Of a DNA stretch of 64,000 nucleotides, positions 10,725 through 26,997 are shown in pieces (position 1 is the stretch's first letter; the number at the start of each line of letters is the position of its first letter). A program made the translations under genes and the position numbers. The stretch is from positions 558,001 to 622,000 of the forward strand of contig NZ_QOKZ01000001.1 in NCBI RefSeq assembly GCF_003697785.1, read 5' to 3'. This stretch comes from Paracoccus alkanivorans. Lineage in GTDB: Bacteria > Pseudomonadota > Alphaproteobacteria > Rhodobacterales > Rhodobacteraceae. A model generated the notes under the pieces. That model worked only from the letters and a program-made list of their open reading frames with translations, was not told where the DNA came from and ran no database searches.

Positions 10725-11047
10725 GTTATCTGCCTTGTATCTGAGACGTTGGACAACATGGGGTATAAGAGGCATCACAGCAACCACCCGGCCCGCTGAC
10801 GCGCTACGCCTGCGGAAACTTCGCTTTGCAAGCGCGGCATTAACGCTAACGAACCATTCAAATGAGTTTTTTAATCACGTTTCCATGAGGTTGAACTGGC
10901 GTGAATTTGCTTCAGTCATGCATCCGCTGCATGGCAGCATTGGCGAAACGGAGGATTGTGCAACTGCAGCATAAAGTCCATCTTAATCCCAACGAAGCGC
11001 CGGGCCATCCGGGCCGGGCGCCGGACGAGACGATGAAAGGAAATACC
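10725..11047. other. Divergent promoter region between apbC and the DUF1127-sRNA unit
   Basis: This 323-bp gap must hold the promoters of apbC (minus) and of the DUF1127 gene with its sRNAs (plus). A possible -35-like TTGAAC lies at 10891-10896, but I see no convincing -10 partner. In R. sphaeroides the equivalent unit is driven by the heat-shock sigma factors RpoHI/RpoHII. The frame can be extended upstream from the chosen DUF1127 start, but those residues look non-coding. Confidence 0.4.
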
Positions 11048-11275
11048 ATGGCTGTTATCGCTCAAGCACAGAACGCCGCCGTCGAGACTGGCCTGCGTGG
11101 CCGCCTGCTGAACGCGATTCAGCGGATGCAGGAAAACCGCGCCCGCCGTGCGGTCTACCGTCAGACCCTGCGTGAACTCAACGCGCTGACCGCCCGCGAT
11201 CTGGACGATCTGGGCATCAACCGTTCGATGATCACCCGCCTGGCCCATGAAGCGGCCTACGGCGAAGGCAAGTAA
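11048..11275 (+). CDS. DUF1127 small protein (CcaF1-like), leader gene of the sRNA array
   Basis: This is a 75-residue basic protein starting MAVIAQAQNAAVETG with a good ribosome site (AAAGGA, six bases before the ATG). The C-terminal half, RELNALTARDLDDLGINRS, is the DUF1127 signature of arginine-rich small alphaproteobacterial proteins. In R. sphaeroides a DUF1127 protein (CcaF1) is co-transcribed with the CcsR sRNAs, binds RNA and affects their maturation. Here too it is followed directly by such hairpins, eleven bases after the stop codon, with no terminator between. I infer the same arrangement and role. The Ala-rich N-terminus is not a recognisable signal peptide. Confidence 0.88.
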   Translation: MAVIAQAQNAAVETGLRGRLLNAIQRMQENRARRAVYRQTLRELNALTARDLDDLGINRSMITRLAHEAAYGEGK

Positions 11276-11286
11276 GAATTCGCTTT

Positions 11287-11361
11287 CCCGACCCATCTCC
11301 TCCTCCCTTGGGTTCGGGATATGGCGATGCCCTCCTCTCCTCCTCCCCGGAGGGCATCGCC
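11287..11361 (+). ncRNA. Cuckoo/CcsR-type sRNA 1 (two anti-SD-like hairpins)
   Basis: Two consecutive hairpins present CCTCCTCCC in their loops. The first has stem 11287-11294 with 11310-11318 (CCCGACCC/GGGTTCGGG, one bulge) and motif 11299-11307. The second has a perfect 13-bp stem, 11323-11335 with 11349-11361, and motif 11339-11347. This weak-then-strong pair of loops is the defining architecture of cuckoo RNAs. The pyrimidine loop resembles the anti-Shine-Dalgarno end of 16S rRNA and could pair with purine-rich ribosome sites. Confidence 0.85.
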
Positions 11362-11371
11362 CAAAGTTAGC

Positions 11372-11449
11372 TCCGCAGCCCCTCCCCTCCTCCCGGGGCC
11401 TACGGATGCCAGCGGCGGCTCCTCTCTCCTCCTCCCAGGGAGCCGCCGC
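11372..11449 (+). ncRNA. Cuckoo/CcsR-type sRNA 2
   Basis: The first hairpin has an inner stem 11378-11382/11395-11399 (GCCCC/GGGGC), an outer stem TCCG/CGGA (11372-11375/11403-11406) and the loop motif CCTCCTCCC at 11386-11394. The second has a perfect 11-bp stem GCGGCGGCTCC/GGAGCCGCCGC (11412-11422/11439-11449) with the motif at 11428-11436. The order and strengths match sRNA 1. Confidence 0.83.
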
Positions 11450-11457
11450 ACAAGATA

Positions 11458-11558
11458 GCCGCCTCACTTGCGGCACGACCATACGACGGGCCATCTCCTC
11501 CTCCCTCCCGGCCTGTCGTTCGCGGTGACGCCCTCTCCTCCTCCCGGGCAGCCACCGC
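11458..11558 (+). ncRNA. Cuckoo/CcsR-type sRNA 3 (repeat unit A)
   Basis: A small leading hairpin GCCGC/GCGGC (11458-11462/11470-11474) precedes two cuckoo hairpins. The first has stem ACGAC-GGCC/GGCC-GTCGT (11483-11492/11510-11519) with motif 11497-11505. The second has outer stem GCGGTG/CACCGC (11522-11527/11553-11558), inner stem GCCC/GGGC (11530-11533/11546-11549) and motif 11537-11545. The leading hairpin and both stems recur 109 bp downstream in sRNA 4. Confidence 0.82.
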
Positions 11559-11566
11559 ACCCCATA

Positions 11567-11665
11567 GCCGCCTCATTTGCGGCAAAGCGACGCGACGGGC
11601 ATTCTCCTCCCCTCCCAGCCTGTCGCCTGCGGTGTCGGCCTCTCCTCCTCCCGGGCCTCCACCGC
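11567..11665 (+). ncRNA. Cuckoo/CcsR-type sRNA 4 (repeat unit B, one variant loop)
   Basis: The same leading hairpin GCCGC/GCGGC (11567-11571/11579-11583) is followed by a first hairpin with stem GCGAC-GGC/GCC-GTCGC (11592-11600/11618-11626). Its loop reads CCTCCCCTCCC (11606-11616), the only loop of the ten without an exact CCTCCTCCC. The second hairpin has stem GCGGTG/CACCGC (11629-11634/11660-11665) with inner GGCC/GGCC and the motif at 11644-11652. Stem changes relative to unit A are compensatory (ACGAC/GTCGT against GCGAC/GTCGC), which argues that the folds are selected. Confidence 0.82.
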
Positions 11666-11672
11666 AACCCAT

Positions 11673-11753
11673 ACGCGGCCCCTCCTCCTCCCTGGGCCAG
11701 CGTTGAGCGGCGGCGCCCTCTCCTCCTCCCTGGGCGCCGCCGCGTTTCTTTTT
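11673..11753 (+). ncRNA. Cuckoo/CcsR-type sRNA 5, ending in the array terminator
   Basis: The first hairpin pairs ACGC-GGCCC (11673-11681) with GGGCC-a-GCGT (11694-11703) and has the motif at 11684-11692 with an extra CCT before it. The second pairs GCGGCGGCGCCC (11707-11718) with its exact complement (11732-11743), with the motif at 11722-11730, and continues into GTTTCTTTTT. The last sRNA therefore doubles as the transcription terminator, as expected if upstream members are released by processing. Confidence 0.85.
11705..11753 (+). terminator. Intrinsic terminator of the DUF1127-sRNA operon
   Basis: This is a perfect 12-bp GC-rich stem (11707-11718/11732-11743) followed by GTTTCTTTTT at 11744-11753. 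It is the only hairpin of the array followed by a T-run, so one transcript probably covers the DUF1127 gene and all five sRNAs. Confidence 0.9.
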
Positions 11754-11801
11754 GCGCAACAGCCCCTTTCCGACCGCGCCCGACAGGGCTATTGCGATTC
11801 C

Positions 11802-26866: not shown

Positions 26867-26939
26867 CCGGAAGGACCACCCTTCCGGTCCCCGTGAATTG
26901 CGGGGATCGCCCCCCGTCAGCGCGTTGCGCCCACGGGGG
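26867..26939 (+). other. Three consecutive hairpins in the region upstream of ffh
   Basis: The stems are CCGGAAGG/CCTTCCGG (26867-26874/26880-26887), CCCCG/CGGGG (26889-26893/26901-26905) and CCCCCGT/ACGGGGG (26911-26917/26933-26939). They lie between the TonB-C gene and ffh. None has a good T-run, so they may be an ffh leader structure or a weak terminator of the upstream gene. Confidence 0.4.
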
Positions 26940-26997
26940 CATTCGTGTTTTGCACCGGCCCGTCGGGCCATCCATCGGACCGCAGGAGGCGTGGCCC

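Follow-up and report, generated by a model that had tools for sequence, protein, structure and literature searches.

A ten-hairpin RNA array of the CcsR/cuckoo type behind a DUF1127 gene in Paracoccus, its conserved promoter block and a candidate LysR-type regulator

Ten RNA hairpins follow a small DUF1127 gene in the 64-kb stretch of Paracoccus alkanivorans DNA that we analysed (hereafter the window; C1:558001-622000 of a genome searched as 4.66 Mb in 39 contigs). Nine of them present the same pyrimidine 9-mer in an unpaired loop, and a promoter block conserved among relatives precedes the gene. We assign the array to the CcsR/cuckoo (CIN1) type and regard it as an additional Paracoccus copy of a known kind of system. 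The account that we favour, and which we consider probable as a whole, is that of a ccaF1-CcsR-type operon whose processed anti-Shine-Dalgarno (anti-SD) RNAs repress the translation of binding proteins. One promoter would give a transcript in which the DUF1127 coding part is followed by ten cuckoo hairpins in a 3' array, and which ends at hairpin 10; RNases, probably RNase E aided by the DUF1127 protein, would cut the single strands around the strong hairpins and the linker hairpins, leaving stable RNAs of two to four hairpins; and each loop would pair with Shine-Dalgarno (SD) sequences of the GGGAGGAGG kind and block translation, the main class of targets being the periplasmic binding proteins of uptake systems.

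The hairpin array and its family

The gene and the elements of the array, placed by the fold unless otherwise given, are as follows.

11048 to 11275, + strand: DUF1127 small-protein gene, 75 aa, ccaF1-like (PF06568, E = 3.5e-11)
11286 to 11319, + strand: cuckoo hairpin 1 (fold and 30 aligned loci)
11323 to 11361, + strand: cuckoo hairpin 2 (fold and 30 aligned loci)
11378 to 11399, + strand: cuckoo hairpin 3
11412 to 11449, + strand: cuckoo hairpin 4
11458 to 11474, + strand: linker hairpin A, motif-free, flanked by ACAAGAUA and ACGACCAU (fold; recurring linker element)
11483 to 11519, + strand: cuckoo hairpin 5
11522 to 11558, + strand: cuckoo hairpin 6
11567 to 11583, + strand: linker hairpin B, motif-free, preceded by ACCCCAUA (fold; recurring linker element)
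11592 to 11626, + strand: cuckoo hairpin 7, with the variant loop
11628 to 11666, + strand: cuckoo hairpin 8
11670 to 11705, + strand: cuckoo hairpin 9
11707 to 11743, + strand: cuckoo hairpin 10, probably also the intrinsic terminator stem (fold and sequence)
11744 to 11753, + strand: GTTTCTTTTT tail (sequence)

The ten pyrimidine-loop hairpins begin 10 nt past the DUF1127 gene, which the earlier note had placed ahead of them and which the Pfam match confirms; a Mrp/NUBPL-type gene on the opposite strand is the upstream neighbour and an rlmJ-type gene the downstream one. The DUF1127 protein is 95% identical to its P. methylarcula homologue, and the array is 90.3% identical to the array of that species. 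Exact copies of CCTCCTCCC numbered nine in the window, all on the + strand and each in the loop where the earlier note had located it, relative to a mean of 1.19 and a maximum of 4 in 100 shuffles; hairpin 7 carries the single variant loop that it had described, AUUCUCCUCCCCUCCCA. The region from 11276 to 11760 had a folding energy of −231.6 kcal/mol compared to a shuffled mean of −169.2 (z = −10.9), and 0 of 100 shuffles folded as well, so that the array is far more stable than shuffled sequence, the comparison by which the earlier note had proposed to judge it. All nine exact 9-mers were unpaired in the ensemble with a probability of about 1.00. Two details of the earlier description stood in part. 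There are ten hairpins between 11286 and 11743, but they are not all consecutive; two motif-free hairpins are interposed, giving twelve in the fold. The proposed weak-then-strong order held for four of the five doublets (−14.8/−27.1, −8.0/−24.8, −15.0/−19.4 and −13.2/−29.3 kcal/mol for the first, second, fourth and fifth) but not for the third (−16.6/−16.2). Hairpin 10 and its GTTTCTTTTT tail are probably the terminator. A terminator scan restricted to loops of 3 to 8 passed over the hairpin 10 stem because its loop exceeds that limit, and marked a shorter overlapping stem that shares the tail; as the scan gave 2 sites relative to a shuffle average of 1.2, it adds no weight.

The pairing is maintained among relatives. 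Thirty of the 39 listed first doublets were aligned, the structure being that of the window's own fold, and for both helices together 89 cells carried two-sided changes, compared to 32.4 when shuffled and 16 to 36 in slid structures. In helix 2, 95.7% of the cells were paired and 11 of the 13 pairs showed two-sided changes; helix 1 was weaker (62.6% paired), partly owing to gaps. Nine columns of the hairpin 1 loop were invariant in the 30 aligned loci, a constancy that, like the pairing, was partly built in because the rows had been selected for the motif, with one mismatch allowed, and for a stem of four or more pairs.

A covariance-model search of the window, as the earlier note had recommended, matched Rfam CcsR1 (RF02791) to three of the doublets (E = 1.8e-8, 8e-8 and 9.5e-7), but all three fell below the gathering score, the best at 41.2 bits against a cut-off of 65.3. 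The best match to ar14 (RF02344), at 47.2 bits (E = 2.5e-7), likewise lay under its cut-off of 58.8. At E <= 0.001, CcsR1 was found in 82 of 100 family genomes relative to 1 of 14 control genomes, and 5 of the 100 passed its gathering cut-off. The cuckoo motif is described as two to four hairpins whose loop is conserved and whose helices are free (PMC4504443). In the array, CCUCCUCCC was presented in the loop in nine exact copies and one variant, the DUF1127 gene adjoined the RNAs, and the first doublets of 30 loci had stems that were paired but free in sequence, clearly for helix 2 and less so for helix 1. Because all of the cuckoo/CIN1 features that could be tested were present, we assign the array to that type despite its sub-cut-off Rfam scores, and the cuckoo/CcsR identity proposed in the earlier note thus holds, on the similarity to CcsR1 and ar14 below their gathering scores and on the DUF1127 partner. 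Other matches at the array (6C RNA, 39.2 bits with a cut-off of 47; Scr3202, 30.2 with a cut-off of 52; and, weaker, ar7, HOTTIP_1 and mir-9223) were set aside as below cut-off, and taken to reflect likeness to a C-rich loop or chance. The sole gathering-level Rfam match within the 64-kb window was the ffh sRNA (RF01793) at 26896 to 26947 (+), with 68.2 bits.

The nearest known system is that of Rhodobacter sphaeroides, in which CcsR1-4 are reported to derive from the ccaF1 3' UTR with involvement of RNase E and CcaF1 (PMC8625941, PMC10253847), and for which the FlhR mRNA is a published target (PMC8307010). CcaF1, whose coding sequence lies on that transcript, is described as binding RNA, and the DUF1127-CcsR association is in print as the CIN1 locus (PMC10253847). 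The array shares with CcsR1-4 the upstream DUF1127 gene, the two-hairpin units, the CCUCCUCCC loop and the 3' terminator; it differs in having ten hairpins rather than eight, in that hairpins 1-4 and 7-10 form blocks without an internal linker hairpin and, unlike Rfam CcsR1 members, in scoring under the RF02791 cut-off. Like the cuckoo family/CIN1 (Reinkensmeier and Giegerich 2015, as rendered in papers citing it), it has a conserved loop, free stems and a DUF1127 neighbour; whereas the motif as quoted there comprises two to four hairpins, here there are ten in a row plus two linkers. Several hairpins with the same loop also characterize alpha-r14/NfeR1 of Sinorhizobium meliloti (RF02344), which is reported to be activated by LsrB and to have mainly ABC transporters as candidate targets (PMC10746234, PMC3927594); the three hairpins of NfeR1 have a promoter of their own, whereas here the hairpins sit behind a DUF1127 gene.

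The promoter block and its candidate regulator

Upstream of the DUF1127 gene lie three short elements.

10928 to 10941, + strand: TGCATGGCAGCATT box, resembling the reported VtlR/LsrB box; candidate activator site (conservation, motif match)
10956 to 10961, + strand: TTGTGC, putative −35-like element (no variation in any of its six columns across the 19 aligned loci)
10979 to 10984, + strand: CATCTT, putative −10-like element, 17 nt downstream of TTGTGC (of its columns in 19 loci, four do not vary and two are at least 90% conserved)

The block read, in the 19 aligned loci, TGCTGCATGGCAGCATT, then TTGTGCA, then CATCTT 17 nt after TTGTGC; within the box GCA and GCAG were invariant in 19 of 19, as was all of TTGTGC, and the remainder varied in some rows. 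Among 53 related loci, which were fetched via the DUF1127 protein and some of which are second copies within one genome, the 14-mer box was identical in 27, differed at one position in 10 and at two to four positions in 16, and the −35/−10 pattern followed it in 46. The strict composite of box and TTGTGCA had 42 occurrences, spread over 41 of the 100 family genomes, and its reversed control had 0; it was absent from the other 59 genomes, including the other one of the same genus (G023), although CcsR1 matched in 82 of the 100. When we read 30 of the 42 composite places, at least two loops lay within 1.4 kb downstream in 30 of 30, compared to 0 or 1 on the upstream side or on the other strand; 23 of the 30 showed a simple DUF1127 motif. 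In this genome TGCATGGCWGCATT had 2 exact and 6 one-mismatch sites, and its reversed control 0. The second exact box (C12:67812; L073 1501-1776) precedes a 53-aa ORF without a Pfam match and may mark another gene under the same control; in the seven other box loci of the genome we found no RNA family of the cuckoo type, and one tRNA only.

The Brucella VtlR motif is reported as CAATGCAGCCATGCA (PMC12595884), the reverse complement of which is TGCATGGCTGCATTG; the window has TGCATGGCAGCATTG, which matches it at 14 of 15 bases. The box departs at one base from the VtlR consensus GCAT-N3-TG-N3-T (PMC7486931). VtlR is reported to be a positive regulator of three DUF1127 genes and AbcR2 in Brucella, and LsrB to activate NfeR1, with the same loops, in S. 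meliloti; the LsrB-NfeR1 link is itself already published (PMC10746234). The VtlR/LsrB regulon of Brucella and Agrobacterium resembles the present locus in having a LysR-type box before a DUF1127 gene; there, DUF1127 genes and sRNAs are described as separate targets, whereas here the DUF1127 gene and the hairpins stand together behind one promoter block. The conserved promoter site thus suggests a VtlR/LsrB-like regulator as a possible activator.

The trxB-vtlR gene order is called well conserved in Alphaproteobacteria (PMC7486931). In this genome we saw no LysR gene closer than 1.5 kb to trxB (C36, L080), unlike in the Rhizobiales locus L083, where one lies behind trxB; in both, trxB adjoins an Lrp-like gene, by eye. 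Because no VtlR was seen beside trxB, we sought the regulator by protein search, with the trxB-adjacent LysR gene of L083 (Bauldia) as the query, taken as VtlR/LsrB by the gene order given in papers. Its best match here was C1:776025-776897 (46% identity, 280 bits; next paralog, 122 bits). In one genome the reverse search led back to the query gene; in the other (L061) its best match was a LysR gene next to a fragment of trxB where the contig ends. These reciprocal best hits point to a putative VtlR/LsrB-like ortholog in the genome. At E <= 1e-60 the regulator had a single match in 57 of 61 family genomes (55 of 56 good assemblies) and no match in 4 of the 61, one of them 97% complete.

We propose, tentatively and at somewhat less than even odds, that this single-copy Rhodobacteraceae VtlR/LsrB-type LysR protein directly activates the operon via TGCATGGCAGCATT...TTGTGCA and that the loops shut down many binding proteins. 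Another factor may read the promoter block instead, either a different LysR protein or, as in R. sphaeroides, a stress sigma factor alone, and to this we give very nearly an even chance. A figure legend of the R. sphaeroides work names RpoHI/RpoHII (PMC10253847), and another gives TTG at −35 and TAT at −12 for their promoters (PMC10673084); TTG is contained in TTGTGC, and CATCTT has no TAT. LsrB is, moreover, called unique to Rhizobiales (PMC11975290), and the one-base break in the consensus, the lack of a LysR gene within 1.5 kb of trxB and the absence of the strict composite from most family genomes all fit another factor. In contrast, the 14-base agreement with the Brucella motif, the reciprocal best hits to a trxB-adjacent LysR gene and the control of DUF1127 genes and NfeR1 by the VtlR/LsrB class elsewhere argue for the LysR regulator that we propose.

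If the proposal holds, that regulator would form with the DUF1127 protein and the anti-SD RNAs one uptake-control circuit predating the split between Rhizobiales and Rhodobacterales. What induces this widespread operon, how its RNA is processed and which genes it targets are known only in part; the circuit is made testable by the promoter block, by the regulator with its single copy and by the start sites listed below, which could join the Rhodobacter CcsR literature with the rhizobial literature on VtlR, AbcR and NfeR1. Within the open-licence literature we found no paper that treats CcsR1 or CcaF1 together with VtlR; CcaF1 and LsrB co-occur in one such paper, LsrB merely within a reference title. 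Nor did we find the linker element, the block structure or the promoter-regulator link described in the open-licence literature searched, and the main text of PMC5107571, on P. denitrificans sRNA, contains none of the terms sought.

Start sites complementary to the loop

The array's loops can base-pair with GGGAGGAGG. For isolated loops the pairing energies ran from −16.3 to −19.9 kcal/mol at target-type sites and from −7.5 to −10.3 at control sites, and the variant loop of hairpin 7 paired with GGGAGGAGG at −17.1 kcal/mol. We defined a target-type site as GGGAGGAG followed after 4 to 10 nt by ATG, the only start codon considered, and found 35 in the genome relative to 8 for the reversed control. 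All 35 were examined; leaving out nine short ORFs and one duplicate, they precede 25 distinct ORFs of at least 100 aa, of which nine are periplasmic binding proteins by Pfam (SBP_bac_5, NMT1-like, two DctP, TctC, three SBP_bac_1 and Peripla_BP_6). The other 16 encode alanine dehydrogenase, TniQ, a short-chain dehydrogenase, PhoU, a LuxR-type response regulator, a succinyl-CoA-ligase-type protein, a molybdopterin oxidoreductase, a DBI_PRT phosphoribosyltransferase, an acyl-CoA dehydrogenase, two AMP-binding enzymes, an aminotransferase, an Nramp transporter, an ABC ATPase, an H-type lectin and a pantoate ligase. Binding proteins numbered 0 of the 23 ORFs kept from 30 of the 42 sites of the first control, AAAGGAGA, and 0 of the 24 ORFs kept and Pfam-scanned from all 30 sites of the second, AAAGGAGG; the second control includes three transporter parts other than binding proteins, and one of the control sites (L135) was judged through the longer ORF of a neighbouring site (L136). 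Fisher's test gave p = 0.0017 against the first control and 2.4e-5 against both (9 of 25 relative to 0 of 47), values that are post hoc because the binding-protein class was noticed before the controls were chosen; target and control sites, moreover, differ in SD type as well as in complementarity. By this post hoc test, start sites that can pair with the loop are biased towards periplasmic binding proteins. NfeR1 carries the same loop and is reported to silence mRNAs via anti-SD motifs, with mostly ABC-transporter candidates (PMC10746234).

The loops could instead act as a general brake on translation, competing as anti-SD-like sequences with 16S rRNA at many SD sites, with low specificity and with copy number setting the dose. 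Their core, CCUCCU, is what we take to be the anti-SD core of the 16S rRNA end, and the number of copies varies widely among relatives (see below). Such a brake appears unlikely, however, since sites of the AAAGGAG type pair about 7 to 10 kcal/mol more weakly than those of the GGGAGGAG type and the best-matching sites form a biased gene set. Less likely still is that the array serves mainly as a platform for the DUF1127 protein or some other RNA-binding protein, the free amount of which it would set, with a secondary role for pairing by the loops. That CcaF1 is an RNA-binding protein encoded on the same transcript (PMC10253847) and that many hairpin copies would suit a sponge agree with such a role; the good fit of the loop sequence to SD sites does not, nor do two Paracoccus DUF1127 loci (L046 and L047) in which our count gave zero cuckoo hairpins.

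Linker hairpins and copy number

Linker hairpins A and B are 5-bp G+C stems that divide the array into four hairpins, a linker, two hairpins, a linker and four hairpins. Such elements recur: in the window and the 53 related loci, 94 long gaps (55 to 100 nt between loops) were found, and 93 of them held an inner hairpin of −4 kcal/mol or better. In 88 distinct linkers the best inner hairpin had a median of −7.6 kcal/mol compared to −2.5 when base-shuffled, and 94.3% of linkers reached −7 kcal/mol relative to 7.8% of shuffles. The stem was GCCGC/GCGGC in 64 of the 94 gaps; others were GCCGG/CCGGC (7), CGGGC/GCCCG (2), GGGCC/GGCCC (2), GCCACG/CGTGGC (2), GGGTC/GACCC, GGGAC/GTCCC and more, in a tally that includes about seven picks equal to other helices (non-core picks in L024, L038, L040, L041, L043 and one gap of L042; L054 and L056 uncertain). 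Stems were compared singly, since an alignment misplaced rows with different stems (L049-L052). As the linker stems vary in sequence but pair, it is the pairing that is kept rather than the sequence. Across the wider family, doublets (about 38 to 44 nt from loop to loop) alternate in many arrays with a longer gap of about 62 to 80 nt (for example L065, L214 and L215), an exception being L216, which has no long gap, and small hairpins folded in the long gaps of eight family arrays.

Single strands that might be cleaved measure 16 nt from hairpin 2 to hairpin 3 and 8 nt to each side of a linker hairpin, but 3 nt from hairpin 8 to hairpin 9. Because the linker hairpins, which lack the motif, separate the array into a 4-2-4 pattern, five equal RNAs, as the earlier note had read them, are not the evident outcome, and from the spacing of the cleavable single strands the array would be expected to yield three or four RNA products rather than five. 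If so, the linker hairpins would determine how the array is cut.

We counted as a hairpin any loop with at most one mismatch on a stem of at least 4 pairs. By this rule 35 of the 53 related loci had at least ten hairpins and 21 had more than ten; 18 had fewer than ten, including two with none and one truncated by a contig end. For the 43 loci with Paracoccus in their title the corresponding numbers were 30 with at least ten and 20 with more. The comparison across relatives thus went against the earlier note, which had read five doublets as an expansion; five are ordinary for the genus, and with P. saliphilus reaching twenty hairpins we rejected the expansion reading. In the 30 promoter-defined family loci, this genome included, 2 to 18 loops lay within 1.4 kb (median 7.5; at least ten in 9 of 30), counts for which no stem was demanded and some of which are inflated by look-alikes (for example L193, with 18 loops, 14 of them exact). 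That locus (L062/L193, genome G051) has its 18 loop-like sites past the promoter at a period of about 114 nt (gaps of 39, 47 and 28), and its repeated linkers carry a one-mismatch look-alike of the loop motif.

Arrays can grow through tandem duplication, as seen from the near-identical units of P. saliphilus. Its twenty cuckoo hairpins (L020, downstream of position 2725) include four 188-nt units, two of them identical and the others 97.9% and 89.6% similar, and the array has the look of a recent amplification. Units D3 and D4 of the window's array are 79.8% alike, a likeness that might suggest meaningless G+C-rich inverted repeats of the REP kind, but with compensated stems, a fixed position behind DUF1127 and 30 of 30 promoter-defined loci leading into loops we regard that reading as having next to no probability. 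Five Paracoccus DUF1127 loci (L037, L038, L041, L043 and L045) had only four or five hairpins, and some sparse DUF1127 loci share a genome with a full array, as in P. beibuensis, P. benzoatiresistens and P. hibiscisoli.
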